Below are positions 185 through 42,892 of a stretch of DNA of 64,000 nt, piece after piece. A model generated the notes under the pieces. It ran no database searches. It was not told the origin of the DNA and saw only the letters and a list, made by a program, of their open reading frames with translations. This stretch comes from Sporosarcina ureae (GTDB taxonomy: Bacteria; Bacillota; Bacilli; Bacillales_A; Planococcaceae). The translations under genes were made by a program, and so were the position numbers. The first letter of the stretch is position 1; each line of letters opens with the position of its first letter. The stretch is taken from contig NZ_JARIEA010000073.1 in the NCBI RefSeq assembly GCF_029267015.1, positions 1 through 64,000 of the forward strand, in the 5' to 3' direction.

Positions 185-309
185 TTTGCTATATCCTTCA
201 AGACGCGCTACGAGGTAAATGGCCAGTTTTTAACTGGTGAAAATCCTACCCGCTATATGATGCAATCTAGGCTCGGTCGCTCGACCGGATACCTGAAATA
301 AAATAAAAT
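185..309. other. GC-richer structured intergenic segment
   Basis: This short segment lies between the helicase stop codon and the 64-nt palindrome and is clearly richer in G+C than the AT-rich operon beside it. It holds two small hairpins, CCAGTT/AACTGG (223-237) and CGGTCG/CGACCG (274-287), and an enclosing GGTA/TACC pair. The phrase CTGGTGAAAATCC recalls conserved bits of group II intron RNA, but I cannot confirm an intron and no reverse transcriptase is present. Confidence 0.3.
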
Positions 310-3300
310 TCAGTTTGTTAGGTTATTTACACTTTCATATAAATTAGGTAAATCAAATTTAATTTCATATGGTGAAAAAAAATAAATATTAGATGTAGAA
401 TTTTTCTTTTCAATATTATTTTTCAAACCAATTAATTTTCCATTCTTTATCTTAACAAAAAGATGTTTGTTATGAATTTTAAATTCAGCATAATCCTTAC
501 CATGATGCAAATTAAAAGTTTCTTTTACTTTTCTTAAATATTGCTGTTCTTCCTCGACAGGAAACGTTTTCAACTTCCCATGTACTAGATAAGTTAATAA
601 TTCTAATCCAAGTGATCGATTTAACTGTTCATGCTTAGTTTGATTTTGATAATTACGTAAGCACTTATAACATGATGAATCACATTCGTTACTACATGCT
701 TCTAATACCTCAAATGTTTCTTCAATAATTTCAGATATTCTTTCTCCAGCTTCATATGAATAACCCGCCCCACCAGAAAGTGTATCAAATAAATATAAAT
801 CAACAAATCCTCCTTCTCCATCACGCTGATTAACACGGTAGCCTACAGTTAATTCTTGCGCGTCAATATCTAAGACTCGGCTGGAAGCAAGTATTAATCC
901 TTCCCCTAATGTACAAAGCGCATCACGCAGCCAAAGCTTATTAGCATGAAAATCCAAAGTAGACTTCATAGATAATCGAATTAATAATAGATCTGTTTTA
1001 AAAGAATTCCCTAAATAAACTTCATGTATTATTCCATAGCAACTTTTATTATTAGATCCAGATCGTTGAAATGGTTTGTCATGTTTATTTAAGTTGCCAA
1101 CATAGTTATTCTTTAATATAGGTTCAATAAAACCGCAATCTTCACACATGTTAAAACCACTTTCATTATCTGTACCACGATTAACTATAAGTAATTCTTC
1201 ATTTTCTCTGTGTACATATTCAATTAATTCTAGTTGATTATAAATTTTTGAATCAATATGATCATCTTTCAATATAAGCTGAGGTGAACTAGTATAACTA
1301 TACTCTTGTGATGAATCTCCTTTTCTTACTTCTCTGCCTTTCTGAGGTGAAAAACCCTTAGGTATTATATATGGTTTAATTACTAGCTCCTTTTTACAAT
1401 TTGGACATTTGTCAATCGCTTCTTCTTTTTCTAGTTTTTCAGTAAAATTACATTCATTACAGATTGCTACTTTTTTATCGTAAATATTAATATCTTGGGC
1501 TGGTGCTTCTAGATTTTTCGAGAATGGATTATATATTCCGCCAATACGATATGTTTTTTTATTTACAACAATCTGTCTACCTGGTGCATACTCACTTAAA
1601 GCACGATTTAGCTCCAGTTGGGGACGTTGTACTAGAATAACTTTATTGTCTTTATTACGCCCTTGAATATACAAACTCGATAGATTTTGTGGAAATGCAT
1701 ACGTAGGTAAAAAACCATAGTTAAACAAAAAATTAAGCAATAATTCATCAGGATGTTTTTCTGTTTGTTTTTCATTTTCTAGTTCATAATACTTTTTTAA
1801 GTTTTCTTCTACTTCGAATTCAAATTTATCTATTAAGTCTTGTTCAAGATTTTCCGCAGCTTCTTTTACAAGCTTCCATTTATCATCATCATTTTCAATG
1901 GATTGTTCTGGTATAATGGCAAAAAATTCAGGATTATTTTTAAACTTAATTTTTATCTGCTTTTGAACCCACTCATTAAAATCATTTAGCGAGAATACTG
2001 AATAACCTTTAAAAAAGTCAATAGTTGTACCTAAAGCCTCAGATATATCACTAGAACTTTCTCCATCGTTATCAGCACATTCATGGAAATATGTTTGGAT
2101 TAAAAGTGCATGAATATGTCTTTTAATTATTTTTTTGTTTTTTATATAAATAAGTGCCTCTCTCGCATCGCCACTAATAATTTGCTCTGGATGATTAAAA
2201 TAATAATTGTCATGCGGACCGTCTTGGGCATAGGTAACTACAGTAGAAATTGATGATCCACGTCGACCCGCACGACCTGCACGTTGTTGATAATTTTCAC
2301 GTTGTGGGGGAATATTTCTCATTCCAACTGCAGTTAGCGAGCCTATATCAATACCAACCTCCATGGTAGTTGTACAACTTAATATATCAACAATACCTAA
2401 ATCCTCATCTAATACAATATCTTGGAATGCCATTTCATATTGTTCAGTAGTTGCAAAAGCTATACTAGTATCTTTTTGTGATAATTGGGCTGTATGCTCT
2501 TCAACTGATATGTTTGTTATGTTTTCTCCTTTTAAAACTTGAGCTATCGGCGTTCGCCAATAGCCCTTTTCAGCGCGAAGTATATCGCTTTCAGGTAATA
2601 ATTTTATAATTGATAAAGAGTTACAATTAGGACAGCTTTCATTTACAATTACAGCGTTAATTTGTTTACACGCCCCACATTTATACCAAATATGGTTTAT
2701 ACCATCTTTAATCTTTAATTTATTAAGATCTAAAAAATACTTGTCAGATCTAGATCGACATAATTTTTCAAAGAGTAATTTAATCACTAACCGCGAATTT
2801 TCTTCTCCTACATAATTCCTGATAATTGAAAATAGTTGATCTGACACACTATTTATATTTCTTCCCCACTCGGAAGAATCACGATAAAACCCAAGAAGTT
2901 CTCTTCTTTCATATGTTTCTAAATCTATATCTACAGCTATATTATCTAACATTTCTTTAATAAATAAAATCGTTATATTTTCAAGATTTTCTTTACTTAT
3001 TAAATCATGAATATCTCTACTATAAACACGTTTTAAATTTGCCGGTACGACAATACCAGTTGTTGTATCATATATTGAATACCCCGGCTTTCCAATAACC
3101 TCCAGCATACGTAGTTTAAACTCTTTACGAATAGATATATCTATATCATCATCAGCTTCTTCAAATACTTGTATCAAATCTGGCCCATGTTCATTAAAAA
3201 ATTCTTTGACATAACTATCTTTGTCCCTAACCAAGTCTTTTCTCTCTTCCTGTGAAAATAAATACAATTTATTGGTATGCAAATAGTGTAAAATCGCGGG

Positions 3301-5631
3301 ATATATATGCTTACCTAACTTAGCTCGAATATCGCCTTTCTCAAATTCATATGACGCTTTTAATACCAATTGACGAACAGAATCTTTCTCTACTTCTTCA
3401 GGTATATCTCGTGCCAAGCGTGCAGCCTTTTGGCGACCATCTGAAAATATTAATACTTTACGTCCTTCATTAATGTTTTCTCTTTTCCCTTCGACTGGAG
3501 GTTGTGTTATAAACTGTTCACGAATTAAGTTCGCAAAAGGTTGCTCACCCTTTACCCGAAGATCACGAATATTAAATTTCGCATTCTTTAAACAACAAGG
3601 ACATTTTTCAAATGAAATAGCATCAGAATAAAATTTGTTGTGTTTACGACTTGATACTTTCTCTACTGATTTATAAACTTGTATAAATTCTTTATTCTTT
3701 TCGTTATCGGGCGGTATATTCTGTAAATAGCCTGTTTCAATATGAAGCCATAGTGGTGTTATAGTTTCACTCTTAACATTATCATGAGGTTTCTCAATTA
3801 ATAAATGTATTTCTCTTAATTTCTCACTTATAACACCGTGACCACTCTCATTCCATAAATATTTTGGAAATTCTCCCATTTCATTTACATAACCTCTAAT
3901 AAATGCAGATCCACAATATCTATGTGTTAATACTTCATATACTCTACCGTTACAATCACACGTCAATCGATTATCTTCATATAGTTTTCCCAGTGTTCCT
4001 ACTTCATTACAACTTGAACATTCGTGATTTATACAGGTATAAATTCCAGTGACACCCCTAAAAAACATATGAACTCTTGCTGGTAATAATACTCGTCCAT
4101 TTTTATTTGCTGTATTTGCTAGAAGTAGGAGATTACTTACAGCTTTCTCTGCACTCTCTTTAAGTTCTAGAGGATATAGTAATGAAATGATTTCATTGAA
4201 TGAAGTAGCATTTCCGCTTATTTTTTTAATGACTTTTTCTAAAGGTTCCCATCCATCTAAATTATCATATAAATATTGTGGAAATTCTGTAGCGTTAGAA
4301 GGCGGAGAAGTCCAATTGAGACTTTCAAAAAAAACGGCTAGTTTTTCAATGTTATCACTATAATCGCTTTTAATATTAATCAGGGCTTCTGTATTCATAT
4401 TCAATAAAATATTTAGATTGTTTTCTGTTGTATAAGTCGTTTTTCTATTTTCTTTTACACCCTTTATTAATTTGTATTCACGTTTATCAGGCTTCCCTGT
4501 TAATTGCTCCGCAAATTGAATTGCTCCTTTTTCATCATCTTCATTTCCTAAGCTCGCGGAAGTTAAAATACATTTCATTCGATTACGATCAATACCTAAT
4601 CGTGATTGTAAGCGCCTTATTAGTAACGCAACTTCTGCACCACCAGTACCTCTATACATATGTGCTTCATCCAAAATTAAAATAAATTGATTTTCGTCAC
4701 TTGCAGCTAACCAATCTTTTGTTTGTTTCCATATCGAACGTTCTATTGGTCGCATTAACATATATTCAAGCATAGAATAGTTAGTAACTAAGATATCAGG
4801 CGGGCAGTCTTGCATTTCATGTCTAGTAAATAGTTCCGAATCTGTTGATAACCCCTTATATCTACCTTTACTATTTTTCTTTGAATTCTTAAACGCATTT
4901 AAATCTTTTGCCGGCCACTTGCCTCTATCTTTCATTTGTTTTACTTCTTCAGGTTTATTATTTTCCAATTCGGAATAATAATTTAATATATCATTAAGTT
5001 GATATTTATCTTTATTTGGAGAATGTGATCCTGCATAAGGTGTCCGCGAAGTATACATACCGAATTGAGGATTTCTATCAGCAGCTTGAGAAAATAGTTT
5101 TTTAACCCTATCATCTCCAAATAATTTTCTTAACCTTGTCATTTGGTCACTAACTAATGCATTCATAGGATAGAGGATTAAAGCCCTAACAGATCTTTTT
5201 TCAAATTGAATTGGTCGTTCAACAGCTTCTATATACAATGTATTCAATATTGGATGTAAGAAAGACTCTGTTTTACCAGAACCAGTTCCAGTAGAAACAA
5301 TAATATCATTGTCTTCTTGTAAAAAAGCTTGCATCGCAATTTCCTGATGTAAATACGGCTTTGGATATACACCTACTGATTTTTCAAAACGAGACAATTT
5401 CATCATTAATTCTTTCGATATTTCTGGAATGTTCATACTTTCATATATATTGCCAGACTCGTATACAGGCGTAGACTCAATGTAGGGCTCTGTAGATAGT
5501 GTACCTTTTTTATTTAATAGTATTGTACGTTTTTTTTGAATACTACTTTCACTGATTGGATATTGTGTTTCAATATATTCAGCTAATTTATGATGTAGAC
5601 GATTAGCAATAAAAGTAATTGTGTAGTCCAA
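310..5631 (-). CDS. DruE-like giant DEAH helicase with C-terminal DUF1998/MZB zinc region
   Basis: A 1773-residue superfamily 2 helicase, probably the motor of an anti-phage defence system. Walker A STGTGSGKT is at residues 113-121, NYSMLEYMLMRP near 284, DEAH at 321-324, the TSASLG motif III further on, and the motif V/VI block MEVGIDIGS...QQRAGRAGRRG in the second RecA lobe. Several CxxC pairs follow (CNECNF...CPNC, CEDCG). Near the C-terminus the DUF1998/MZB-type zinc cluster ends in CDSSCYKCLRNYQNQ. The length and fused layout match DruE of Druantia; MrfA/YprA and DrmA are shorter. It is the last gene of a four-gene operon, starting with TTG 3 nt after the preceding stop, behind AAGGGAGAG. 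Family assignment is by motif and architecture only; the helicase call is secure, the Druantia call is inference. Confidence 0.88.
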   Translation of the reverse strand: MDYTITFIANRLHHKLAEYIETQYPISESSIQKKRTILLNKKGTLSTEPYIESTPVYESGNIYESMNIPEISKELMMKLSRFEKSVGVYPKPYLHQEIAMQAFLQEDNDIIVSTGTGSGKTESFLHPILNTLYIEAVERPIQFEKRSVRALILYPMNALVSDQMTRLRKLFGDDRVKKLFSQAADRNPQFGMYTSRTPYAGSHSPNKDKYQLNDILNYYSELENNKPEEVKQMKDRGKWPAKDLNAFKNSKKNSKGRYKGLSTDSELFTRHEMQDCPPDILVTNYSMLEYMLMRPIERSIWKQTKDWLAASDENQFILILDEAHMYRGTGGAEVALLIRRLQSRLGIDRNRMKCILTSASLGNEDDEKGAIQFAEQLTGKPDKREYKLIKGVKENRKTTYTTENNLNILLNMNTEALINIKSDYSDNIEKLAVFFESLNWTSPPSNATEFPQYLYDNLDGWEPLEKVIKKISGNATSFNEIISLLYPLELKESAEKAVSNLLLLANTANKNGRVLLPARVHMFFRGVTGIYTCINHECSSCNEVGTLGKLYEDNRLTCDCNGRVYEVLTHRYCGSAFIRGYVNEMGEFPKYLWNESGHGVISEKLREIHLLIEKPHDNVKSETITPLWLHIETGYLQNIPPDNEKNKEFIQVYKSVEKVSSRKHNKFYSDAISFEKCPCCLKNAKFNIRDLRVKGEQPFANLIREQFITQPPVEGKRENINEGRKVLIFSDGRQKAARLARDIPEEVEKDSVRQLVLKASYEFEKGDIRAKLGKHIYPAILHYLHTNKLYLFSQEERKDLVRDKDSYVKEFFNEHGPDLIQVFEEADDDIDISIRKEFKLRMLEVIGKPGYSIYDTTTGIVVPANLKRVYSRDIHDLISKENLENITILFIKEMLDNIAVDIDLETYERRELLGFYRDSSEWGRNINSVSDQLFSIIRNYVGEENSRLVIKLLFEKLCRSRSDKYFLDLNKLKIKDGINHIWYKCGACKQINAVIVNESCPNCNSLSIIKLLPESDILRAEKGYWRTPIAQVLKGENITNISVEEHTAQLSQKDTSIAFATTEQYEMAFQDIVLDEDLGIVDILSCTTTMEVGIDIGSLTAVGMRNIPPQRENYQQRAGRAGRRGSSISTVVTYAQDGPHDNYYFNHPEQIISGDAREALIYIKNKKIIKRHIHALLIQTYFHECADNDGESSSDISEALGTTIDFFKGYSVFSLNDFNEWVQKQIKIKFKNNPEFFAIIPEQSIENDDDKWKLVKEAAENLEQDLIDKFEFEVEENLKKYYELENEKQTEKHPDELLLNFLFNYGFLPTYAFPQNLSSLYIQGRNKDNKVILVQRPQLELNRALSEYAPGRQIVVNKKTYRIGGIYNPFSKNLEAPAQDINIYDKKVAICNECNFTEKLEKEEAIDKCPNCKKELVIKPYIIPKGFSPQKGREVRKGDSSQEYSYTSSPQLILKDDHIDSKIYNQLELIEYVHRENEELLIVNRGTDNESGFNMCEDCGFIEPILKNNYVGNLNKHDKPFQRSGSNNKSCYGIIHEVYLGNSFKTDLLLIRLSMKSTLDFHANKLWLRDALCTLGEGLILASSRVLDIDAQELTVGYRVNQRDGEGGFVDLYLFDTLSGGAGYSYEAGERISEIIEETFEVLEACSNECDSSCYKCLRNYQNQTKHEQLNRSLGLELLTYLVHGKLKTFPVEEEQQYLRKVKETFNLHHGKDYAEFKIHNKHLFVKIKNGKLIGLKNNIEKKNSTSNIYFFSPYEIKFDLPNLYESVNNLTN

Positions 5632-5634
5632 CTT

Positions 5635-6555
5635 TCATCTCTCCCTTCTTAATTCACAACGAGATAAAATATGCTCAACATTAAATAAATTGTGTGATTC
5701 AAATATATATTGTTTTGGCCATTTTGCAAATTCAGGTGTTGCAAATATTCTTAAAAGTAGATGTTCTTCTTTAGGAAGTGAACAATTAATATTTAATTTC
5801 ATATAGTTCCCTTCAATAGGAAATATATTAAAAGTAAATACTTTGCTTTTCTGATAATTCAACGCTAAATATAGGCGAATATAATGTGAATGACTCTCTA
5901 TTTCAGATGCTTTCCATTGAAAACCGTCCCAAGATGCGAAGAATTTATCAATTTTTTCAGAGTTTCTAAATTTTCTATTAAAAAATAAAATATAAAATTC
6001 ATTTTTAATTAAGTGATTATTTTTTTTTACTTTTAACGCTCTTGATTTAGTAAAATATATTATTTCTGATGGTTCTTCATCTTCTAGAGCTCCAAGTTTA
6101 TTCTCATATACTTTTAAAATTTGACTAAAAGTAGGTCTATGCAAGTATTCTTTATATGACAACGCAATACTCATAGGATTCTCAATACTAATTCCCATCC
6201 CAAGAGTCTTATCATTTGAATTTTGTTTTAATGAACTAATTTTAAAATAATTTCCATCTGGCATTAACACACATCTTTCTGGTGGTAATGAATAAAAACC
6301 GTTACCTATATTTAGAATTTCGCCTACATCAACAAGATAGTTAATAAACTGCATTTCTAAGCTTGGCTTTTCTTTATTAAAAAATGATTTAAAAATGATA
6401 TCTTCATTATTAAATAATCTAATCAATATCGTAGTTATTCTTTTTATATTTATTGATTCCGTTTGAAATTCTTCACAAAAACTAGCTAATAAATTTTTTG
6501 TATAGTTACTGTAATGATTAAGTTTTCTTTGCACAAGTAAATAATGGTCAATCAT
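5635..6555 (-). CDS. Unknown 306-aa protein of the helicase defence operon
   Basis: I do not recognise this family. No signal peptide, membrane segment or nucleotide-binding motif is visible, so a soluble cytoplasmic protein is likely. The first ~100 residues look helical and lead into YSLPPERCVLMPDGNYFKIS (about residues 84-105), a pattern that could be a winged-helix region followed by a beta hairpin. The rest is rich in aromatic and basic residues. Its start overlaps the upstream 653-aa gene by ATGA, and the helicase starts 3 nt after its stop. Such coupling suggests fixed stoichiometry and a role as an accessory or adaptor subunit of the helicase. That role is inferred from context only. 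Confidence 0.75.
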   Translation of the reverse strand: MIDHYLLVQRKLNHYSNYTKNLLASFCEEFQTESINIKRITTILIRLFNNEDIIFKSFFNKEKPSLEMQFINYLVDVGEILNIGNGFYSLPPERCVLMPDGNYFKISSLKQNSNDKTLGMGISIENPMSIALSYKEYLHRPTFSQILKVYENKLGALEDEEPSEIIYFTKSRALKVKKNNHLIKNEFYILFFNRKFRNSEKIDKFFASWDGFQWKASEIESHSHYIRLYLALNYQKSKVFTFNIFPIEGNYMKLNINCSLPKEEHLLLRIFATPEFAKWPKQYIFESHNLFNVEHILSRCELRRER

Positions 6556-8513
6556 ATATCTTTTCCATTACCTTTTGACATATAAAATGATTGTTTAAAT
6601 AATTTGTAACACCATTCAAATAACTCTTCTTCATTTGGAATAAAGGTTACCAACTGATTAAGCCAAACAATCAAATTTTTTGGTGACTTGAGATCTTCAT
6701 CCTTAACATCTTCAATCCAATGATTAAAACGTTTGTATATTCCGTTGCTGAATTCAGAGAATTCAAGATCATCAATCGACGTTAAATACAATTGACCAGT
6801 TACAATTTTACTTAAGTACTTTACAACAACTGGTTTTCTAATATAATCAGCAGATTTAATTAAAGGACTATTAGGCATTCTATCTATAAAGTCATCTGCA
6901 TCTTTCAAAGAATCCAATGTTATAATAATGATATTTGAATTAAGTTTCTCATCGCGCCATTTTTGTTCTTTGATATAGAGTGGCAATGAATAAAATGCAG
7001 AAGTTACATGAGGGTTACTAATAATCATTGCTTTTACTAGCTCTAACGAATTGAATTTTTCATTCTGAATATTTAAATTGTTTAAGTTAAATGTTTCTAT
7101 CTCTGGTATAATTGTTATGCTTTGTGATGAAGCGATACTCTTTGTAATACATTTAGCTAATATTAAACTATTTTCTCCATAAATTAAAATGGGCTCTTGT
7201 AATTTTAGTGACGTTAAAATCGTGGAAGATAGTTTTAATTCATTGTCTTTACCACCAAAGATCTTCAAATTTTCCTGTAATAATCTTTCAAAACCTATAA
7301 TATTGTATATGTATTCACTTTCATATGAATCACTGTTTGAAAACAAGGAGTTACTTAAAGTTTGTTCTTTAATTGAAGGTTTGATTGTTTGAGATTGCGG
7401 GAGAGAAGATGTTGCCAATTGTTCAGCATAAACTTCTGCAAACTCAAATTGCATATCATATATTTTCTTATTCATCGTCTCTTGTACAGTATTAAGCTGA
7501 AGATCAACAGTTCTTAGTCTTTCCTCTTTTATTTCAGCTTGTATTGTAAGATCATTTATATATTGTTCTAGTTTAGTAATATTTTGCAAAAGACTATTGT
7601 TTTGCAATATAAAATTTTCATACTGTTCATCAAATCTCTCTCGAACTTTTGTATCTATGACATTCCCACTTGCCTCTAAGTTCAATAATCTTTCGGTGAA
7701 AGTATCTTGAGTCTCTTTATCTAATGACTTATTAGATATCAAATTTATAGTTCTGTTAATTCTCTCTTTTATATGAGGTTCATATTCATTAACTTCGCTA
7801 TACCATTCTTTTAATCTGCTCGTCACTTTTCTTGTAATTTCACCAAATTCCTCATATTCTTTTAATTGCTTTAATACATCACTTATAACTCTTTGGTCAG
7901 TTGCTAAGTCAATCCATCCTTTAATATTATTGTCCTCTATTTTTTCTATACAGAAAAGTCGCTCCTGATTTTTAAAATGATCAAATACTCTTGTTATATT
8001 TAAATCTTGTTTGTAATAACCTACAAACTCATAATCTTTAACTATATATTTCTCTTTTTGCAATTCAAGTTTGACCGGGCCAATAATATAATCATCTGCT
8101 GTTCTGAAATAAATGAAATCAGATGGTATAAAAGAGAGTGATATACCTTTTAATAGATTTTCCGTTATTAAATGTTTGCTTTTCTCAATTGTTTCATCTA
8201 AATCTATCACTTCATATAAATCTAAATTCATAACATCTTTCTCAAGAGAATACTTCGAAAATTTAGGGTTTCCTTCTTCGAAATAAGTAGCCTCAATCAA
8301 TTCACATAGTTTAAAAACTTCAGATTGTGGAGCTGTATATGAATTTGGAACAAAGACTTTTCCTGAGTTTGGAAATACTGATAAAAGCGAACTTTCATCT
8401 ATAGGTTCTAATTCGCCGTTTATATATATTCCGTAGGGATATGCTCCAGCAGCATATATAATTCCAGCTTCTTTATTAACACTTACTCTAAATACTTTTA
8501 ATAATGCTATCAT
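6552..8513 (-). CDS. Coiled-coil protein with possible degenerate ATPase domain, defence operon
   Basis: A 653-residue soluble protein of unknown family. The N-terminal ~200 residues look like beta-rich domains. Residues ~215-370 are helical with a heptad-like coiled coil (NNSLLQNITKLEQYINDLTI). From about 405 a C-terminal domain has a hydrophobic strand followed by PILIYGENSLILAK (441-454), which sits where a P-loop would be but lacks the GxxxxGK[S/T] consensus. A later strand, NIIIITLDSLKD, resembles a Walker B strand. An inactive AAA-like fold is therefore possible but unproven. It overlaps both neighbours by ATGA (8510-8513 and 6552-6555), so it is translationally coupled. A scaffold that oligomerises through the coiled coil is a reasonable guess. 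Confidence 0.75.
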   Translation of the reverse strand: MIALLKVFRVSVNKEAGIIYAAGAYPYGIYINGELEPIDESSLLSVFPNSGKVFVPNSYTAPQSEVFKLCELIEATYFEEGNPKFSKYSLEKDVMNLDLYEVIDLDETIEKSKHLITENLLKGISLSFIPSDFIYFRTADDYIIGPVKLELQKEKYIVKDYEFVGYYKQDLNITRVFDHFKNQERLFCIEKIEDNNIKGWIDLATDQRVISDVLKQLKEYEEFGEITRKVTSRLKEWYSEVNEYEPHIKERINRTINLISNKSLDKETQDTFTERLLNLEASGNVIDTKVRERFDEQYENFILQNNSLLQNITKLEQYINDLTIQAEIKEERLRTVDLQLNTVQETMNKKIYDMQFEFAEVYAEQLATSSLPQSQTIKPSIKEQTLSNSLFSNSDSYESEYIYNIIGFERLLQENLKIFGGKDNELKLSSTILTSLKLQEPILIYGENSLILAKCITKSIASSQSITIIPEIETFNLNNLNIQNEKFNSLELVKAMIISNPHVTSAFYSLPLYIKEQKWRDEKLNSNIIIITLDSLKDADDFIDRMPNSPLIKSADYIRKPVVVKYLSKIVTGQLYLTSIDDLEFSEFSNGIYKRFNHWIEDVKDEDLKSPKNLIVWLNQLVTFIPNEEELFEWCYKLFKQSFYMSKGNGKDI

Positions 8514-10015
8514 TTATCTTCCTTCAACTCCCTGATATAATCAATTACTGGTTTTGGTATTTGGAAGCCATTATAATTAATTAGATATAACAATTTTCTT
8601 TTATTTTTATAATTACTATCAATCACCATTTGTTTTAATGAAATTAACTCCTGTATTGAATAAATGCCTTTAGGAAACATATTTACTCTTTCATAGTAAG
8701 ACAGTAATTTTTCATAATCCCATATGTTTTTTTTAATATTTTGTTTTGTAATTTTCAAACTCCAAATTGTTGGTATATCTATTCTGAAAGGTGCTTTTAA
8801 ACCACTTAAATCATTAGTGTTAACTTTATAATCAATTTCATCTTTAGAGCTAACGCAAAATGAATGGGTACTGCTAACTGAACATACATCTTTACAAACT
8901 ATTTCTCTTTTTTTATAAATAACTTCATTATCATTTATTTTAATAGAAAATAAAGATTTATTGGAATGCACCACTTCAGGAAGATATCGGAGAGTTATGA
9001 ACTCTGTTACTACTTGATCCATATAAATTATATAATCTCCTTGTCTAGAAAAATTAATTTCAACAACATTATTTTTATTTCCGAATAATTCAGAAATACT
9101 TGAATCTGGTGAAATTACAATAATTTTCTGATTAAAGGTAGATACTTTAATATTTGATATTTGTAATTCGACGAATGGTTCAGATACTTCATAAGTTGTT
9201 CCAATTTTCTTGAAATTCGAAGGTTTTATCAAGTCGATATGACATCTAACTTGTGTTAATTCATAATCCAAAGTTCTACCAAACCATTCTATTAAATCCT
9301 CCGAAAATTCTGTAGGCATTATTAAATCGTAAATATGGTAAACGGAATATTTAAGATAGCTTATAACATCTAAAGATTCATGGATGCTCAAATTATATTT
9401 AGTTACTACAAAAAATCTATCTGACAAAGTAATTTTTTGATATGGAATACTAGTAAATCTTCCTTGAATTTCCTTAAAAATTAGAGATCGGTTTTCAAAT
9501 GGCAGGAATCCTCCACTAATTTTTAAATCTAGATTATTTTCCTTTTCTAAGTTTGAACTAGTTAATGTGTATTTGTTAAGTAAAGGAACTTCTATTACAT
9601 TATTATTTCTACTTGGTAATAAATTCACTATATTGAATTCAAAGTCTACTATTTCTCTACAACTATACGAATAGTAACTTTTCTGGATCTGATTTAAAGT
9701 TATCTCTTTATTAATCAAAGGAAACTTCAAAAAGAATTTATAGTCTTTTGAATTTCTTTCTATGATTAATCTAACACCTTGGTTTGCAACTGTTTCCAAG
9801 TTATATACATTATCTATACTTAAACTATTAGAATATAGTTCGCACAATTCTTTTGAATAGTTCTTTTCACCTTTCATATGACGAAAATGTGATACCATTA
9901 CTTTTCCTGGATAAAAAATCACTTGACATCTACAATATGGACAGTAATACTTCAGTCCAGATACAGCGTTTTTCGCTTGAATTAATTGCTTTTCTAATGT
10001 ATAAGCAAAATCCAA
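8510..10015 (-). CDS. CoiA-like zinc-site protein, first gene of defence operon
   Basis: From the TTG start chosen here the protein has 501 residues. The N-terminus carries YYCPYCRCQV (C25, C28), then VSHFRHMKG (H43, H46) and C58 in ELCELYSNS. This CxxC...HFxH...C layout matches the N-terminal zinc region of competence protein CoiA-like proteins. The remaining ~440 residues are unlike anything I recognise. They include a second Cys-rich spot (CKDVCSVSSTHSFCVSS) and no clear nuclease motif by eye. The ORF track starts at GTG 10024, but AGAGGTG lies 6 nt before TTG 10015 and overlaps the GTG, so TTG is preferred. A promoter-like TATAAT lies ~50 nt upstream. A nucleic-acid sensing or nuclease role is inferred from the CoiA resemblance. 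Confidence 0.75.
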   Translation of the reverse strand: MDFAYTLEKQLIQAKNAVSGLKYYCPYCRCQVIFYPGKVMVSHFRHMKGEKNYSKELCELYSNSLSIDNVYNLETVANQGVRLIIERNSKDYKFFLKFPLINKEITLNQIQKSYYSYSCREIVDFEFNIVNLLPSRNNNVIEVPLLNKYTLTSSNLEKENNLDLKISGGFLPFENRSLIFKEIQGRFTSIPYQKITLSDRFFVVTKYNLSIHESLDVISYLKYSVYHIYDLIMPTEFSEDLIEWFGRTLDYELTQVRCHIDLIKPSNFKKIGTTYEVSEPFVELQISNIKVSTFNQKIIVISPDSSISELFGNKNNVVEINFSRQGDYIIYMDQVVTEFITLRYLPEVVHSNKSLFSIKINDNEVIYKKREIVCKDVCSVSSTHSFCVSSKDEIDYKVNTNDLSGLKAPFRIDIPTIWSLKITKQNIKKNIWDYEKLLSYYERVNMFPKGIYSIQELISLKQMVIDSNYKNKRKLLYLINYNGFQIPKPVIDYIRELKEDK

Positions 10016-10065
10016 TAAAATCACCTCTCACAATTCATGGTTATATGTGCCTGTATAAATATGTT

Positions 10066-10095
10066 ATTATAGAAAAATGAAATTTAAAAAAACAA
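10066..10095 (-). promoter_or_regulatory. Putative promoter of the defence operon
   Basis: On the minus strand a perfect TATAAT (10066-10071) is preceded 18 nt upstream by TTGTTT, a weak -35. It lies ~50 nt before the first gene of the operon in very AT-rich DNA. No operator-like palindrome was noticed. Confidence 0.45.
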
Positions 10096-10271
10096 AATTT
10101 ATGTATTTTTCTACTTAAGATCTATTTAGTTAAGTGATTATTAATACATATATTATGCTAAATTTCAATAAAAATACTCTTAAATCATATCTTCAGATTT
10201 GCTATATATTTTACTTTAATTTTAAATATTGTATGGTAGTTTCTAACATTATTCTTAGCAACTAATCTTTC

Positions 10272-10422
10272 TACTGGATAAAATACACTACCCTGCCACA
10301 CACACTAATCAGCACTGACCACAATCGGCTACCACTTTTTCATCAGTCCATATTCCCTACAACACATCCACCTTTACGATAATTATCCAGATCAGCATCA
10401 TATCCGTAATCTCCACACCCAT
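10272..10422 (-). pseudogene. Decayed phage holin (copy of 39698-39934)
   Basis: Reading the minus strand from ATG 10420-10422 gives GVEITDMMLIWIIIVKV, then, after a stop, GLMKKW(stop)PIV and ...GSVFYP. These match, in order, EITDMVVVPVIIGLV, GLPKKWCPIV and GVVYVFP of the intact holin at 39.7 kb. Several stops and a shift break it. It follows the remnant of the same neighbour gene as at the intact locus. Confidence 0.75.
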
Positions 10423-10432
10423 CTCTTGTCTA

Positions 10433-10672
10433 TTATCGAGCACGATAAATTAAACGCTTCTCTGCTTCCGCATGCTCTACATACTCCGAAAACGCGAGGA
10501 CTTTCGGCATTAACCAATCCGCTACGACCCGTCTCACGGAATTTTTTGGCTAAGTAAGTAGTACGCGTCTGCTAGTGATTTACTAAGGTAAAATGCAATC
10601 CAAACAGGTCGTTTGGATTCCACCACGAATAATTTAAATTTAAGGACATGTTTTGTTTGCAAATCGCCTTCA
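10433..10672 (-). pseudogene. Decayed copy of the 154-aa phage protein at 39953-40417
   Basis: In one minus-strand frame I read KLFVVESKRPVWIAFYLSKS followed by LADAYYLLSQ. The intact protein has KLFVVESKQPNWYAFYLSKK followed by EADAYRL. After frameshifts it continues FRETG and LMPKVLAFSEYVEHAEAEKRL, matching LMPNLLTFAES...VYVGHVEAGKRL. The N-terminal third is missing or unrecognisable. The match fixes the origin of this stretch as a second, older copy of the prophage module. Confidence 0.8.
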
Positions 10673-10919
10673 GAAGTGACGCATATTGGAAATCAGAACG
10701 AAGGCATCTCAGCCTAAAGCGATGTATGCGATAGCTCTCGTTTTCATTCTCTTCTAGAAAGTTCTCATATTGTAATCGGTACAATACTGATTTCTCTTTC
10801 ACATATCTCGCAAAGATATTCAACTTCCGCTGCAGGGTAGATCCTTCTCCAAGATCGTAAACGTCTTCTACAGGATACAGCTTATCTCCAGATGCTTGGA
10901 GCGCTTCGAATAAATCCAT
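10572..10919 (-). CDS. 115-aa ORF, probably a chimeric remnant
   Basis: The ORF starts MDLFEALQAS and has no convincing ribosome-binding site (GACGGGCT before ATG). Its last ~30 residues are an out-of-frame reading of the decayed phage gene at 10433-10672. The first ~85 residues look protein-like (helical, charged) and may be the stump of another phage gene that ran into the remnant. I recognise no family. It is probably not a functional gene. Confidence 0.25.
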   Translation of the reverse strand: MDLFEALQASGDKLYPVEDVYDLGEGSTLQRKLNIFARYVKEKSVLYRLQYENFLEENENESYRIHRFRLRCLRSDFQYASLLKAICKQNMSLNLNYSWWNPNDLFGLHFTLVNH

Positions 10920-11483
10920 AGCCCGTCGCTAGTTCTCTGTTAGTTATAAAGGTTTATCGTGAATTCTGAGAGAACTTTCGGTCACGCCGAATTTTAATTT
11001 AGATAGTTGTTTTTCATGAGTAAAAGAGTGAGATCCAAATTTTTAGGTTGGAGAAGTCGTTTTCCAAGAAATTAGTTGGTGTCATTTGGTTGGTTCGTTC
11101 CTTCTTTCCTTCTTTCTTAAAGGTAACTTCTTCAACATATTCATACTTTTTCATTTGAATAATTACCATTTTCCATTACAAGTATTCTTTATTTATAATT
11201 AATTAGCTTTTCGTTCGCATTGCGACCGCAGGAGCTCACTTTCTTCTTAATAGATCCTTCATTTCTTAGCTTGTACATATTTGATTCACTTGTTGTCTTG
11301 GTTTGATCAGCAGCGTTTCAGAAAGACAATCACCGCAGTAATAAATGCTTGTGCTATAAATGAAATCTCTTACCACTTGGGAATTTGACAGGAATCACTT
11401 GTCTTCTTTAAAAGAATACCAGGTCGTGATAGCATTCTGAATAATGTTGTGACTTGATGCTTCAAATCATGAAATATTGTTTC
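10920..11483. other. Intergenic stretch without recognisable genes
   Basis: No ORF with a ribosome-binding site and no strong hairpin was found. The sequence is moderately AT-rich with short T/C runs and may be further decayed phage DNA, but no match could be made by eye. Confidence 0.5.
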
Positions 11484-12734
11484 TTAATATCTCTCATAAT
11501 AGCCGTTATCTGACCGCACCTCCACAGTACTGCGTCCATAACTTGACTGAACGTCAAACCTATATTTATTGTACGTATACATTTCTCCGCTCTTCTCATC
11601 TCGACTTCTTGCTTCTGACTGGGAGATGAACTGTATGTAAACTGGCTTATAATATGAATAATTACGAATCAAGATCTGCTTCACTTCGTCTTGTGTTAAC
11701 TCAAAATTTCGTTTGCCGATTCGTGTGTACGTCATATCGTGAATCTTCCATTTTTCTGTTTCCTTTTTAAATATATAATCAACGAAGACTCCACCTGATA
11801 CTGGTCCATCTGAATCAAGCAAAATCGTGTTGACTATCAACGTGTCTTTGCTTGATTGCGAATAATTAAGACGAACAGACAACTCCGATATATAATAAGG
11901 AAAGAATGACGTATCACATTCAAAGCACACATACTTATAGTCCGGTTTCATTTGTATGTCTGTGAATCTCGCAGTGGCATAAGGTAGTAATTGTGAACGT
12001 ATTTCACTGAACTTTTTATCTGCCAAAAATCCCCTAATCATTACGCCTTCTACTTCAGCTGGCATGCGATTCAAAAGATCTAGCACTTGCTCTCTGCTAA
12101 CCGTTCCAGATTCGACAGGTGTGACACCAACTTCCAGCGCACGGCTTAAAAATTCCGCATAATGCGCACGCGTAACAGGACGGTTTGGATGAAACTTACC
12201 GTTATTGCCATATGCTACGCCATTTGCCAGTAAAGCATTTGCGTGGACAAAGCCCCAATGATCCATATACATATCATGGAAACCACCTGTCCATTCATCC
12301 AAACGAAAACGGAACGCTAAATCTAGAATTTTTGCCATTTGAATCCGAGTTATTGGTGCATTCGGATTGAATTTCTGATTCAATCCGCCGCTCACGATTC
12401 CAGCTTGTGTTAGATTCATGATTGGCTGATAGTATGGGAGGTTCAGTGGTACATCTTTATAGATCAGCTTCTTACTTGCTTTTGGCAGTTTCAGTGCCTT
12501 GTCGAGCAGTGACGCGACATGTTTACGGCTGATCGGCTCATTCGGTCGGAATTTGCCGTCGGGATAGCCGCTGATAAATCCTTTCTTCTCCATTTCTTGA
12601 ATCGCTGCATAGTTGGGATGCTTCTTCGGTACATCTTTGAACTCTTTTGCGGATGCCTGTCCTATGTTTATGAAAGTAATGGATAAGATGAATAGCATTG
12701 TAGTACAAAGAATAGTTTGCAGTAGTTTTTTCAA
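11484..12734 (-). CDS. Secreted protein with three SLH domains and unknown C-terminal domain
   Basis: A cell-surface protein of 416 residues from the TTG start. AAGGAGTGAGG precedes TTG, which gives MKKLLQTILCTTMLFILS, a classic signal peptide; the longer ATG start in the ORF track would bury it. Three SLH repeats follow, each with the ...G(Y/N)PDGKFRPNEPISR pattern: FISGYPDGKFRPNEPISRKH, IVSGGLNQKFNPNAPITR and VAYGNNGKFHPNRPVTRAH. They anchor the protein to secondary wall polymer. The ~200-residue C-terminal part has a mixed, possibly NTF2-like profile (SGGVFVDYIFKKETEKWKIHD). It is a more distant paralogue of the two other SLH proteins here and lacks their upstream motif. Confidence 0.85.
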   Translation of the reverse strand: MKKLLQTILCTTMLFILSITFINIGQASAKEFKDVPKKHPNYAAIQEMEKKGFISGYPDGKFRPNEPISRKHVASLLDKALKLPKASKKLIYKDVPLNLPYYQPIMNLTQAGIVSGGLNQKFNPNAPITRIQMAKILDLAFRFRLDEWTGGFHDMYMDHWGFVHANALLANGVAYGNNGKFHPNRPVTRAHYAEFLSRALEVGVTPVESGTVSREQVLDLLNRMPAEVEGVMIRGFLADKKFSEIRSQLLPYATARFTDIQMKPDYKYVCFECDTSFFPYYISELSVRLNYSQSSKDTLIVNTILLDSDGPVSGGVFVDYIFKKETEKWKIHDMTYTRIGKRNFELTQDEVKQILIRNYSYYKPVYIQFISQSEARSRDEKSGEMYTYNKYRFDVQSSYGRSTVEVRSDNGYYERY

Positions 12735-12921
12735 GACCTCACTCCTTGTAAAATTTTGTTTAATTATTAAACTCATATGAAAAACACTGGCACATTAAAC
12801 CTTGATTTGTATTAGAACTTTGTTCCTGAAATTTGCACTCACCTTAAATGCTAAAAATGATTCTTTGTGTATAATTAGATCTCTTCAATGTAATTAATAT
12901 ATTAATGTTATTTTTAACCTT

Positions 12922-13179
12922 CTATTGTAGATATACATAGGTCAGTATTATGAAGAGCACGGTAATAAGAAGTATAATATTAAACCTTCTCTTGTTCATA
13001 GGTTCTTTAACTTTCAAAAAATCATATCCACAGTACCTACATGATTTGGCAAATGTTCCTGCTTCTTTATGACATCGTGGACAATTATCACCTACATTTA
13101 CAGGAAGTACAGCACTACACTTCTTGCAATCTCTTATGCCTACTAGATTGTAAGTATTGCACTTATTGCAATTTGGCAT
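12922..13179 (-). CDS. Small zinc-ribbon protein with one C-terminal membrane segment
   Basis: 85 residues with four CxxC-type knuckles (CNKC, CKKC, CPRC, CRYC), forming two zinc ribbons in residues 4-55. A single hydrophobic helix (FNIILLITVLFIILTYVYL) ends the chain. AAGGAGGG lies 6 nt before the ATG. It is probably a membrane-tethered zinc-ribbon protein facing the cytoplasm. The function is unknown. It stands alone, between an SLH gene and decayed lipoprotein genes. Confidence 0.7.
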   Translation of the reverse strand: MPNCNKCNTYNLVGIRDCKKCSAVLPVNVGDNCPRCHKEAGTFAKSCRYCGYDFLKVKEPMNKRRFNIILLITVLFIILTYVYLQ

Positions 13180-13604
13180 ATCCTACCCTCCTTCTACAAA
13201 TAGTAATTCAAGATTTTTTTATGATTATTCACCAATACACTTAAATATAATAAACAAATTAAAAATAGGATTCTAAGGATGAAACATACTTAAAAATACT
13301 ATTTGCGTTCATCTCTTCTCTCAAGAACTATGTTTTACAAGAAGAATTTGCAAAATCCCGCAATTGTAATTATATAATATTCCAACTAAACATAGAGCCT
13401 CCGCGAGGATGAGTAACAAGCCATAAATCCAGAGATACTAAGGTCTGGATTTGCCTGCGAAAGCTATTATCCACACCACTTCAAGTAAAGTTGCAACGCC
13501 GAGTTGGCTTGCAAAACTACGTACTTTCATTTTGCACTATACAAAACATATCAAACATGCTTTTTTCATTATATATTTTGTTACTCTGCATCCTCAGACT
13601 TACC
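13180..13604. other. Intergenic stretch with one hairpin
   Basis: A 9-bp perfect inverted repeat AAATCCAGA/TCTGGATTT (13425-13452) could be an old terminator for the decayed gene upstream of it on the minus strand, but there is no T-run. The 60-aa plus-strand ORF here has no ribosome-binding site and is not supported. Confidence 0.4.
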
Positions 13605-35374: not shown

Positions 35375-36976
35375 ATGGGCTTTTTCAAAAAGAAAGTGAA
35401 AACTAAAGTACAATCCACTCCCCCTAGCCAAACGAAAGAAAATACTTCACCCAGTGATTTAAAGACAAGTCTTCAGGACAATATACAATTCGTAAAAGAT
35501 AGTCTCGGTGCGAGCACCGATATTGTCATTCGTGAAATTCGAATTGGTAAAGGTGGATCGGTGAAAGCGGGGATTTTTTATACCGACGGCTTAAGCGATA
35601 CACCGTCATTGCAAAATTTCGTTATGGAATCGTTGATGTTAGATATAAAAGGGACCCCGTTAGAGAAGAAGGTAACGCCTGAACAAAATCTCTTAACTGT
35701 TTTAAAAGATTTTGCTATGACGGTGGGAGAGATTAAAGATCTCACCAACTTTGATGATCTTTTTACCTTTCTTTTATCTGGGGATGCTATTTTGTTAATT
35801 GATGGATATTCTGAAGGTCTAGTCATTGGAAATAAGCACTGGGTTGAGCGTGGGGTAACGGAACCTACGTCTCAGACAGTAGTTAGAGGACCGCGCGAAG
35901 GTTTTTCTGAAAATCTACGAATCAATACAGCATTGATTCGTCGGAAATTGAAAGATCCAAGTCTTTGGATGGAGTCAAAAGTGATTGGAACGCGGACGAA
36001 AACGAATGTTGCTATTATGTATATTCATGGCGTTGCAAATGACAAAATCGTAGAGGAAGTTCGTTTGCGTTTGGACCGAATAGATATTGACGGGATTTTG
36101 GAAAGTGGTAATATCGAGGGGCTAATTGAAGATTCAACGTACTCCCCTTTCCCTACCGTTTTTAATACCGAACGTCCAGATACAGTAGCTGCAGCACTTC
36201 TCGAAGGACGCATTGCCATTTTAGTGGATGGAACTCCTTTTGTACTACTTGTTCCCGCACTATTCGTCCAATTTTTCCAATCTCCTGAAGACTACTATGT
36301 GCATACCGGTATTGGAAGTCTAATTCGACTTCTACGCTTCTTTGCATACCTAATTGCTTTGCTTGCACCCGCATTATTTATTGCGGTCACCACTTTCCAT
36401 CAAACGATGCTACCACCTGCACTCCTTATTAGCCTGACAGCCCAACGAGAAGGTGTGCCATTTCCGGCATTTATTGAAGCCGTTATAATGGAAATTACTT
36501 TTGAAATTTTGAGGGAAGCAGGCGTAAGGATGCCCCGCTCCATCGGTTCAGCCATGTCCATTGTAGGTGCGTTTGTGATCGGGACCGCTGCGGTCGAAGC
36601 TGGCATTATTTCAGCTGCGATGGTCATCGTCGTTTCCATAACCGCTATATCAAGCTTTGTTTCACCTACTTACAACCTTGCGATCGCTGCGAGGATACTA
36701 CGCTTTGGATTTATGGCGTTAGCTGCTTCGTTTGGGTTATATGGCATCGCCATAGGTTTAGTGGCTCTTATTCTCCATTTATGCAGTTTACGTTCATTTG
36801 GTATACCTTATATGTCACCATTAGCTCCATTTAACGTTTCCGATCAAAAAGACACGTTGATTGTGGCGCCTGTATGGAAAATGTTTACTAGACCTCGCCT
36901 GACGAATCAAACAAATAAAGTTAGGCAACAAGATCCAGCTTCCGCGAAACCACAGCCACCAAAAAACGATGAATAA
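35375..36976 (+). CDS. Spore germinant receptor A subunit (GerA family)
   Basis: 533 residues. A ~250-residue hydrophilic N-terminal domain begins DNIQFVKDSLGASTDIVIRE and contains GRIAILVDGTPFVLLVPALF at the domain border. About five membrane helices follow (AYLIALLAPALFIAVTTFH, the conserved segment REAGVRMPRSIGSAMSIVGA). This is the GerAA/GerKA type, an inner spore membrane protein that with B and C subunits senses nutrients and opens an ion path. It starts a four-gene operon A-C-D-B behind GAGGTAG. The ligand cannot be predicted. Confidence 0.92.
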   Translation: MGFFKKKVKTKVQSTPPSQTKENTSPSDLKTSLQDNIQFVKDSLGASTDIVIREIRIGKGGSVKAGIFYTDGLSDTPSLQNFVMESLMLDIKGTPLEKKVTPEQNLLTVLKDFAMTVGEIKDLTNFDDLFTFLLSGDAILLIDGYSEGLVIGNKHWVERGVTEPTSQTVVRGPREGFSENLRINTALIRRKLKDPSLWMESKVIGTRTKTNVAIMYIHGVANDKIVEEVRLRLDRIDIDGILESGNIEGLIEDSTYSPFPTVFNTERPDTVAAALLEGRIAILVDGTPFVLLVPALFVQFFQSPEDYYVHTGIGSLIRLLRFFAYLIALLAPALFIAVTTFHQTMLPPALLISLTAQREGVPFPAFIEAVIMEITFEILREAGVRMPRSIGSAMSIVGAFVIGTAAVEAGIISAAMVIVVSITAISSFVSPTYNLAIAARILRFGFMALAASFGLYGIAIGLVALILHLCSLRSFGIPYMSPLAPFNVSDQKDTLIVAPVWKMFTRPRLTNQTNKVRQQDPASAKPQPPKNDE

Positions 36977-36991
36977 GAAAGGGAGTATATG

Positions 36992-38179: not shown

Positions 38180-38185
38180 CTGATC

Positions 38186-38419
38186 ATGTTAAATAGTATA
38201 GGCGTCCTCTTGATAGCAGCTGCCATTGTGTGGTTTGAAGTTCCCTCTCTCTTAGATAAAAAACATAAAAAAGAATTGATCGCGTTTTCTGTTTTTCTTA
38301 CGATAGGAGTGGTGTTAGGCATGGTGCTTGGATTTGGAAAGTCCATTCCTAACCCAATGGACTTACTCACTTTTTTATTTACACTACTAACTAACCTGAT
38401 GGCTCCTTTGCTGAAGTGA
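38186..38419 (+). CDS. Germinant receptor D subunit, small two-helix membrane protein
   Basis: 77 residues with two hydrophobic helices (IGVLLIAAAIVWFEV and the LIAFSVFLTIGVVLGMVLGF segment), then a short hydrophobic tail. Size, topology and location inside a gerA-type operon match the D subunits known from gerK and some Bacillus receptor operons, which modulate receptor activity. It begins 6 nt after the C-subunit stop. Identification is by context and topology. Confidence 0.7.
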   Translation: MLNSIGVLLIAAAIVWFEVPSLLDKKHKKELIAFSVFLTIGVVLGMVLGFGKSIPNPMDLLTFLFTLLTNLMAPLLK

Positions 38420-38451
38420 AGATCTAGGTGAAGGGAAAGGTAGGATATGAC

Positions 38452-39606: not shown

Positions 39607-39645
39607 ATCCAGCATATCTTCTTTTATGAAGACAGCTGGATTTTA
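39607..39645 (+). terminator. Terminator of the germinant receptor operon
   Basis: ATCCAGC...CTTC/GAAG...GCTGGAT forms a two-part stem followed by TTTTATC, 40 nt after the B-subunit stop. Confidence 0.8.
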
Positions 39646-39697: not shown

Positions 39698-39934
39698 TTA
39701 GTCTCTGCCCACTACGGCCTTCCCACCGCTATACAAACCGCCAGCAGACAATCCCATGACAACACCACTCAACACTCCACTAGCCCAGTCCTCTGGAAAC
39801 ACATACACGACACCGCTTGCTACACCAAGTACTATCGATACAATCGGACACCACTTCTTCGGCAGCCCGTATCCTTTCAGCGCATCTACTAGTCCGATAA
39901 TTACTGGGACTACCACCATATCCGTTATCTCCAC
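39698..39934 (-). CDS. Phage holin-like protein
   Basis: 78 residues with two hydrophobic segments, VVVPVIIGLVDALKGYGLP and a glycine-rich VLSGVVMGLSAGGLYSGGKA. MEITDMVVVPVIIGLVDALK is the pattern of small holins in Bacillales prophages. Normally such a protein makes holes for an endolysin, but no lysin gene is next to it. AAGGAGAG precedes the ATG. A decayed copy is at 10272-10422. Confidence 0.65.
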   Translation of the reverse strand: MEITDMVVVPVIIGLVDALKGYGLPKKWCPIVSIVLGVASGVVYVFPEDWASGVLSGVVMGLSAGGLYSGGKAVVGRD

Positions 39935-40436: not shown

Positions 40437-41690
40437 TTAGCTTTGTAAGTTTCTGAGTCGACCCGTGTCTTTGTCGTAGTGGACGGTGAAGCTGCCGACT
40501 GGGCCATTGCGGTGTTTGGCAACGGTAATATCCAGATGATTCGATATTTCTGATTCTTGGTCGTAGTAGTCATCCCTGTAAAGGAAGCACACGACGTCAG
40601 CATCTTGTTCGATGTTGCCTGAGTCACGTAAGTCGCTCATCATCGGGTGTTTGTCTTGTCGTTGTTCGACAGCTCTTGAGAGTTGCGACAAGACGACAAC
40701 AGGGCAGTTAAATTCTTTCGCCATGGATTTTAAATCTGCGCTAATTTGACCGATTGCTTGATTTTGATTGTTCGCTGCTTCCTCCGGTCGGATGATCTGC
40801 AAGTAGTCAACGAAGATAATCGGACGCTTTTCTGGATTTGCTTTGATGATTTTACGAGCTGCAGCTTTTATTTGGCTCACTTTGATTCCGCTGCGGTCGT
40901 CGATTCTAATCCTTGCACTTTGCAGGAGCTCGAGTGCTTTCATCCAACTATTCTTTTGTGAATCGGGAAAATACTTATTCGGATCGCGCATTTTCAAACG
41001 ACTGTATCCACCAGCTGAGGCAATGAGTCGGTCTGACAGCGTTTTTCGGCTCATTTCAAGTGAGAAAATCAGTGGCAAATGATTAGCCAATCCAGCAGTA
41101 AGTGCGAAATGATTGAGTGTATCTGTCTTACCCATCGATGGTCTTGCCGCGACGACGATAAATTCACCATCTTGGAATCCGTTCAGTACATAATCCATAG
41201 ACTGTAAGCCCGTACTTATTCCCGTCATCCCCGGTGCTTCGATGAATGGTTGTTCGTATTGGGATACAAGATAGTCGTCGAGTAACTCCAATTCGACGGA
41301 TGCATGATCACTATCCAGTTCGTCTAAAGCTTTTTGAATCTTGCCGATCACCCACTGCTCGGCCAACGCTCGCTGCAAAATCTTCTCCGTTTCAATCTTC
41401 TTAAACTTGTCGATCACAATCTCCAAGTATTCGTCAAAGCGGTCTGGGTTCGCAAATCTACGTAAATCCGCTACATAATTTGCTCCACCAAGTTCTGCTG
41501 GTTCGCGTGTTGTCAGCAAGGTAATGAAGTCGATTGAGCGTCCCTGTAGCGCCAATCCTTTCATGGATAGATAAATACTTCTGTGTAGCTGTGTCTCAAA
41601 AAAAGCCACTTGAATTCCACTGTCGAGTATTAGATAGTTTTCCTGCATCATCGTACCGAGAAGACTTTTTTCTACTAGTTCGTTCATCAT
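40437..41690 (-). CDS. DnaB-like replicative helicase (phage type)
   Basis: 417 residues. The N-terminal domain (NELVEKSLLGTMMQENYLIL) and the RecA-like motor are both present: Walker A ARPSMGKTD, FSLEMSRKTLSDRL, Walker B IIFVDYLQII, VVVLSQLSRAVEQR and the arginine-finger region VAKHRNGPVG. It is slightly shorter than chromosomal DnaB (~450 aa). Its ATG overlaps the stop of the DnaD-like gene, giving the usual initiator-helicase pair of phage replication modules. It appears intact. Confidence 0.9.
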   Translation of the reverse strand: MMNELVEKSLLGTMMQENYLILDSGIQVAFFETQLHRSIYLSMKGLALQGRSIDFITLLTTREPAELGGANYVADLRRFANPDRFDEYLEIVIDKFKKIETEKILQRALAEQWVIGKIQKALDELDSDHASVELELLDDYLVSQYEQPFIEAPGMTGISTGLQSMDYVLNGFQDGEFIVVAARPSMGKTDTLNHFALTAGLANHLPLIFSLEMSRKTLSDRLIASAGGYSRLKMRDPNKYFPDSQKNSWMKALELLQSARIRIDDRSGIKVSQIKAAARKIIKANPEKRPIIFVDYLQIIRPEEAANNQNQAIGQISADLKSMAKEFNCPVVVLSQLSRAVEQRQDKHPMMSDLRDSGNIEQDADVVCFLYRDDYYDQESEISNHLDITVAKHRNGPVGSFTVHYDKDTGRLRNLQS

Positions 41691-42481
41691 ACGTGATCAT
41701 CTCCTTTCGTGAAATCTAGCACTGGCGGAACGAGCGGGCGTCTTTTCGGCTTCTTTGACAAAGTCTGTTCGTTTACATAATTTTCGAAGTTACTTGCGCT
41801 GAACAACGTCGCGGGCCGCAAATATTGGTTGAATTCCGGTAGATGCAACCACTGATTTGTTTTGAGGTCGATGACACGCATGAAATCTTCTTGTGTGTAT
41901 CCCTCGCTCAATCGATCGTTGATACATTTTCGAGTAGTAACGTTTTCAGTTTTGAACTGTTTTCCGGTCTTGTTATTTAAGTACTCAATAACGGAATGGA
42001 GGACGTCGAGATTTATCTCGACACTCTTTTTATTCTTTTTTATTAAAGGTTCTTTAAGTTCTTTAGTTATTGGCTTGCTCAATTCCGACACCTGGAGTTG
42101 TTCAACATCGACACGTGCAGCTGTCGGTGTTGGACAATCGATTTGCCCGATTCCGAACGGATTTCCTGGGAATAACGTATAGTCGATTCGGTACCACTTC
42201 GTTTTGTCAATTTTCATTTGGTTGTGTTGATCTGTTGAAATGAGGTAGCCCTTTTTTTCCAAATCATACACAATACGTCGAATCGTATTTGTAGACCAAA
42301 ATGTAAATTCTTTTGTCCAGTCCGCATACGTCTTATAGACCCATTTATAACCATCCTTACTACTTTTTGAAATAAGCGAACGGTAATGCAATTGCTGTAA
42401 AAATAGTGCGCCATTTATTCCAACTTCGTGTACAAGCGATGGTAATAATGGGATTGTTTCTTCATCAATTAATAATTTCAT
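41687..42481 (-). CDS. Phage replication initiator, DnaD-like with winged helix
   Basis: 264 residues. The N-terminal winged helix (WTKEFTFWSTNTIRRIVYDL...KGYLIS) should bind DNA. After a linker, the C-terminal domain ...VIEYLNNKTGKQFKTENVTT...YTQEDFMRVIDLKTNQWL is the conserved phage C-terminal/DnaD-related domain that loads a helicase. It is coupled to the DnaB gene by ATGA. GGGGGACC precedes the ATG. Confidence 0.85.
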   Translation of the reverse strand: MKLLIDEETIPLLPSLVHEVGINGALFLQQLHYRSLISKSSKDGYKWVYKTYADWTKEFTFWSTNTIRRIVYDLEKKGYLISTDQHNQMKIDKTKWYRIDYTLFPGNPFGIGQIDCPTPTAARVDVEQLQVSELSKPITKELKEPLIKKNKKSVEINLDVLHSVIEYLNNKTGKQFKTENVTTRKCINDRLSEGYTQEDFMRVIDLKTNQWLHLPEFNQYLRPATLFSASNFENYVNEQTLSKKPKRRPLVPPVLDFTKGDDHV

Positions 42482-42646: not shown

Positions 42647-42892
42647 TTACACACACATTGCATAATTAATTCGATAACATTTTGATGTACTTCCTTCTCT
42701 ACCAGTCATTACGTCCAAATAGCCGATAGTTTCTAAATTCAATAGAATGCTTTCAATCAGCTGAAGCGACCAGAACGGGAACATCTCTTGCCAGGCGTTT
42801 TGTTCTACTAATAATCTCGTCGTTTTTAAGTAGTGCATAGTAGCGCTTTGTCTCATATCCCATTCTCCCTCGACGTAACTTGCTCGTTTCAT
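42647..42892 (-). pseudogene. Truncated phage initiator paralogue
   Basis: 81 codons with no ribosome-binding site. The segment FWSLQLIESILLNLETIGYL...KCYRINY aligns with FWSTNTIRRIVYDLEKKGYL...KWYRIDY of the intact initiator next door. Only the winged-helix part is present and the linker and C-terminal domain are lost. It is probably the stump of a second, diverged initiator gene. Confidence 0.55.

Follow-up and report, generated by a model that had tools for sequence, protein, structure and literature searches.

A decayed phage gene pair beside a Druantia type I operon in Sporosarcina ureae, and two orphan phage replication modules related to it

In the chromosome of Sporosarcina ureae, broken phage genes lie against a defence operon, which raises the question of whether the two arrived together. 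A preliminary description of the stretch of DNA analysed here (64,000 nucleotides, hereafter the window) had suggested that two related phage elements entered this region, and that the operon came with, or replaced, prophage DNA. The features on which our answer draws are collected in Table 1.

Table 1. Features of the window that are discussed in the text
Feature	Position	Strand	Basis
Segment specific to this strain in comparison with G271, its nearest relative	204..13589	.	blastn to G271 on both sides
DruE, Druantia type I helicase	310..5631	-	PADLOC PDLC00013, E 0
DruD	5635..6555	-	PADLOC PDLC00011, E 5e-12
DruC	6552..8513	-	PADLOC PDLC00007, E 2e-48
DruB, leading gene of the operon; the relic lies ~250 bases away	8510..10024	-	PADLOC PDLC00004, E 3e-39
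Holin-gene relic, codons ~1-48, frameshifted	10274..10415	-	blastn to 39698-39934, alignment
P154 relic, codons ~62-153; frameshifts and an internal deletion	10433..10647	-	blastn/tblastn to 39956-40417
DUF3885 gene fragment, second copy, running into the P154 relic	10641..11051	-	PF13021 E 2e-12 (10641-10919)
Holin of copy A, intact	39698..39934	-	PHROG 1299 holin, E 4e-23
P154 of copy A, intact, phage protein	39953..40417	-	sequence searches, IMG/VR loci, AlphaFold model
Phage-type DnaB replicative helicase of copy A	40437..41690	-	PF03796 E 2e-81; PHROG 19
DnaD-like helicase loader/initiator of copy A	41687..42481	-	PF09524 E 1e-27; PHROG 428
Short DnaD N-terminal paralogue, upstream end of copy A	42647..42892	-	weak PHROG matches; relatives have homologues in this position

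A decayed copy of the P154-holin pair

Positions 10274-10647, on the minus strand, are a decayed copy of the gene pair for P154 and a holin that stands intact at 39.70-40.42 kb. A blastn search of the whole window with the intact region (39641-40440) gave two collinear matches in the same order and on the same strand, 10274-10493 (68%, E 2e-24) and 10527-10635 (68%, E 1e-9), the next-best match having an E value of 2.9. The preliminary description had noted this likeness to a 154-amino-acid protein and a holin on the strength of peptide motifs, which are indeed present in the frame translations of the segment, and the tblastn check that it proposed and a comparison with shuffled sequence bear it out. 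P154 as tblastn query against the whole genome recovered the relic at 10534-10644 (E 1e-7, one internal stop). The Smith-Waterman local score of the relic against the intact pair was 73, compared with a mean of 12.8 (s.d. 1.6, maximum 23.5) in 500 dinucleotide shuffles, and 450-base pieces of the window outside the segment never scored above 22. Convergence or chance as the source of the similarity can be dismissed with near certainty: nothing was found in its favour, the E value of 2e-24 speaks against it, and none of the 500 shuffles got to even one third of the real score.

Both reading frames of the relic are broken by frame changes and stops, and the pair lacks the 5' part of P154 and the 3' part of the holin gene. 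It ends near 10274, at holin codon ~48, with ~250 bases between it and the DruB start codon, and thus lies right beside the defence operon, as had been described. At its other end it begins at 10647 (P154 codon ~62), where it is fused to the DUF3885 fragment. This fragment shows 80% DNA identity to the DUF3885 gene of G271, and the similarity stops exactly at 10647, so that a deletion or recombination must have joined the two pieces; since the same genome has an intact orthologue of this G271 gene elsewhere (C37:1325-1951), the fragment is a second copy. The relic is a dead scar, an ordinary prophage remnant with no function of its own.

This fits the pattern reported for cocci-shaped Sporosarcina, whose genomes contain on average 2.3 prophages that are almost always incomplete ('prophage scars') (PMC5930826), and the orphan modules described below fit it as well. 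That survey makes no mention of the conserved DnaD-DnaB-P154 modules, and the word 'helicase' is absent from its text.

The site of the relic and the arrival of Druantia

The operon adjoining the relic is a Druantia type I system, identified by PADLOC as a DruE-D-C-B set with DruB, DruC, DruD and DruE in order. Druantia I starts with DruB in the window (310-10024) and in seven other Planococcaceae genomes (L237-L243); no common gene stands upstream of DruB across these seven, each of which differs. For DruA, PF14236 gave no match in this genome or in the seven other family genomes with DruB, and the controls were unmatched too, so that the profile is without a positive control.

The contig ends at the window start, and over the first 127 bases it overlaps contig C37, which makes a D-2-hydroxyacid dehydrogenase gene the left neighbour of Druantia. 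In G271, ~35 bases stand in place of window 204-13589, the strain-specific segment that contains Druantia I, the relic, the DUF3885 fragment, an SLH gene and a zinc-ribbon gene, and in whose open reading frame list there is no integrase. The same dehydrogenase-SLH interval of G018 holds an HNH gene, a C5-methyltransferase, McrC and a McrB-like ATPase, followed by a holin-P154 relic. The order hydroxyacid dehydrogenase, defence genes, holin relic, P154 relic and SLH is therefore common to G018 and the window with C37, and the defence genes differ. The holin relic is shorter on the Druantia side (~codon 48) than in G018 (~codon 72), and relic and SLH gene abut in G018, with 5 kb between them in the window. 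At this site G001 has a DUF3885 fragment and the SLH gene, G271 has two lipoprotein-like genes, and neither strain has defence genes or the relic. In a tree of 214 aligned P154 columns, the relics of the window and G018 form a clade (bootstrap 82) whose sister is the clade of intact copy A.

The site looks like a plastic chromosomal stretch where defence systems come and go. In this it resembles the immigration control region of Listeria monocytogenes, a fixed interval in which restriction systems differ by strain; there, however, the pattern was shown in 872 genomes (PMC10059834), whereas we compare two occupied sites and a few without defence genes, a number that makes a defence 'hotspot' suggestive only.

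The relic clade, the shared order and the shared site are most simply read as one ancestral relic beside which the defence systems were placed later. We consider it likely that an ancestral scar was present at this plastic site and that Druantia was added later and separately. An ancestor of the cocci-shaped Sporosarcina would have carried a third P154-holin copy between the 2-hydroxyacid dehydrogenase and SLH genes, probably together with the rest of the DnaD-DnaB module. Most of this copy would then have been lost and the remainder would have decayed; in the window strain, a deletion would have joined mid-P154 to the DUF3885 gene fragment, and the Druantia I operon would later have been set against the holin end, at the place which a McrBC-type system took in G018. 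The shorter holin relic of the window is what one would expect of a Druantia junction formed later. We infer that the defence genes arrived by ordinary recombination between conserved flanks, as we infer the single relic and the order of events. Against this explanation stand the shortness of the relic (214 aligned P154 columns), the bootstrap value of only 82, the unequal spacing of relic and SLH gene in the two strains (adjoining in G018, separated by 5 kb in the window), and the closest relative, G271, which is without the relic and must therefore have lost it.

An ancestral scar leaves two origins for the third copy. The earlier suggestion that two related phage elements entered the region holds as far as the decayed phage paralogue is concerned, and a second entry is one option for its origin, an old duplication another. 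An intrachromosomal duplication of copy A, which would need no second phage, is compatible with the later addition of Druantia and seems possible to us, if somewhat doubtful. The two copies share a strand at a distance of 30 kb (14 kb in G018), the copy A clade has the relic clade as its sister, and SLH and DUF3885 genes have likewise multiplied in the region. The relics nevertheless branch outside all copy A sequences, so that any such duplication predates the species and is hard to tell from the entry of a second related phage.

It is unlikely, by comparison, that the prophage behind the scar brought Druantia as cargo, carried beyond its lysis genes and kept when the rest was lost. Relic and operon do lie within one strain-specific segment, and defence genes stand 3' of P154-holin in both the window and G018, as do type I restriction-modification genes in G012 and, 3' of P154, a type IV restriction gene in G048. 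However, the relic of G018 is accompanied by a different defence system, no phage structural or integrase gene lies beside Druantia, and ordinary genes are found downstream at most of the ~30 module sites. The pairing of the module with Druantia operons, which the preliminary description had proposed to look for in other genomes, was also absent: the ~20 kb taken at each of the family's seven other Druantia I loci contained no P154, holin, DnaB or DnaD. Given the shared site with its HNH, C5-methyltransferase and McrBC genes in G018 and these seven module-free loci, the idea that the operon came with prophage DNA is not supported, few as the strains are. That it replaced prophage DNA is possible only in the weak sense of an insertion at a plastic site already holding a scar.

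Some defence genes were seen near P154 elsewhere. Type I restriction-modification genes (L043:10034-18399, G012), a type IV restriction gene (L078:4998-10386, G048) and candidate defence genes (L054:6039-9771, G056) lie directly 3' of P154 or P154-holin, and a further decayed 3' half of P154, with a holin after it, stands by the type I genes of G012, as in the window (L043:11129-11518). A general defence hotspot downstream of P154 modules was not accepted, the clear cases being few and housekeeping genes standing at most of the ~30 sites, and is left as a lead.

The scar is a witness that the site by the hydroxyacid dehydrogenase gene once held phage DNA, where defence systems now differ by strain.

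Two orphan copies of the replication module

The intact pair is part of copy A, four genes in one direction at 39.7-42.5 kb that encode a DnaD-like loader, a phage-type DnaB helicase, P154 and a holin. P154 is a phage protein, as follows from two sets of prophage loci. In IMG/VR prophages it stands directly after the same type of DnaB helicase in 28 loci, several of them with repressor, activator, recombinase, terminase and portal-like genes, whose roles we assigned by inspecting the sequences. The Sporosarcina G054 module lies inside a genuine prophage that also has terminase, integrase, ArpU-like activator and anti-repressor genes. Direct tblastn of P154 found no relative among INPHARED phages or PLSDB plasmids; with a distant prophage member as query, two Geobacillus phages were matched, directly after the helicase gene. 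P154 was found in 79 of the 261 genomes of the family, and the order-level genome search repeated the family-level one. Its AlphaFold model (mean pLDDT 84.6) matched none of the solved folds, and in BFVD it matched uncharacterised phage proteins only. Assignments to a Pfam or PHROG family (best matches at E ~0.007, single and inconsistent) and to ribosomal S19-like proteins (PDB profile matches at E ~0.05) were not trusted. A lone holin gene, 58% identical to that of copy A, lies among ordinary chromosomal genes at G000:C73:6344-6571.

The genome encodes one host helicase and two module helicases, the latter in copy A and in copy B on contig C17, whose P154 is the third of the genome (intact, 51% identical). 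The orphan DnaD-DnaB-P154 modules are located at window 39698-42481 and G000:C17:1945-4518. One host and two module helicases are present in each of nine related genomes, that of the window included, and in eight of the nine copy A stands beside the ger operon and copy B at the alkaline phosphatase-AEC carrier site. Copy A takes up 3.8 kb between the GerB and BCCT transporter genes, copy B 3.5 kb between alkaline phosphatase and AEC carrier. Unlike the G054 prophage, neither site has integrase, terminase or structural genes, an absence that rests mainly on the gene content of the two sites, the flanking genes having been compared with PHROGs for the best 25 of 73 families. Copies A and B were rejected as complete prophages because these genes are missing.

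The modules were under purifying selection while resident at their fixed sites, with the caveat that some alleles were replaced. All module reading frames are open in eight species at both sites. Across these species the median dN/dS values of DnaD, DnaB and P154 are 0.18, 0.09 and 0.06 in copy A and 0.13, 0.14 and 0.135 in copy B, compared with 0.09-0.14 for the flanking germination genes. The constraint acted while the module genes were chromosomal, since synonymous divergence in the sister pair G024-G055 is close between module (0.16-0.25) and host genes (0.16-0.20). The holin, by comparison, carries a frameshift in G001, and several other relatives gave no match to it at site A. Among the replaced alleles is DnaB-P154 of copy B in the window strain (G000:C17:1945-3740), which was exchanged for a divergent allele; the AEC and alkaline phosphatase genes beside it are close matches to those of G271.

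For copy A the data favour vertical descent, though the picture is not clean. Copy A and the AEC gene are in agreement (r 0.88), and AEC in turn agrees only moderately with the host helicase. Comparison with the adjacent ger genes had first indicated non-vertical descent, a reading we abandoned, as the ger operon was probably itself exchanged between species. At silent sites the GerA genes of G001 and G271 hardly differ, and other genes place G001 further away (window 35375-39567; L048); the ger region was likely transferred between species.

A possible host role for the modules

The modules resemble the replication region of temperate Bacillales phages, with its DnaD-type loader and SPP1 G40P-like DnaB, the same gene order being found in the IMG/VR prophages and G054. 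Those comparison prophages contain terminase, ArpU-type activator and integrase, whereas copies A and B have no other phage genes except the copy A holin. Two intact orphan copies at fixed sites in eight species suggest a domesticated phage replication module, and a host role would be its natural reading. Domesticated phage replication genes have reportedly been described by Brezellec et al. in 2017, with helicase-loading genes kept by the bacterial host. Sporosarcina would resemble these cases in retaining phage helicase-loading genes, but it keeps loader, helicase and third protein together and has retained its own replicative helicase.

We tentatively propose, with confidence a little short of even, that cocci-shaped Sporosarcina keep two selected orphan loader-helicase-P154 modules for a host purpose beside their own helicase, and that the relic is a third copy whose use was lost. 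One guess at this purpose is an anti-phage role, in which the modules might interfere with the replication of related incoming phages; another is that of an auxiliary or restart helicase.

The scar is unremarkable in itself, and it is the orphan modules, the less ordinary pattern, that deserve specialist attention: A three-gene module has been kept at two sites in eight species without the rest of the phage, while the holin and the third copy decayed. If a host function were confirmed, a whole phage helicase-loading unit would have been domesticated beside a functioning host replisome, and P154 would then merit testing.
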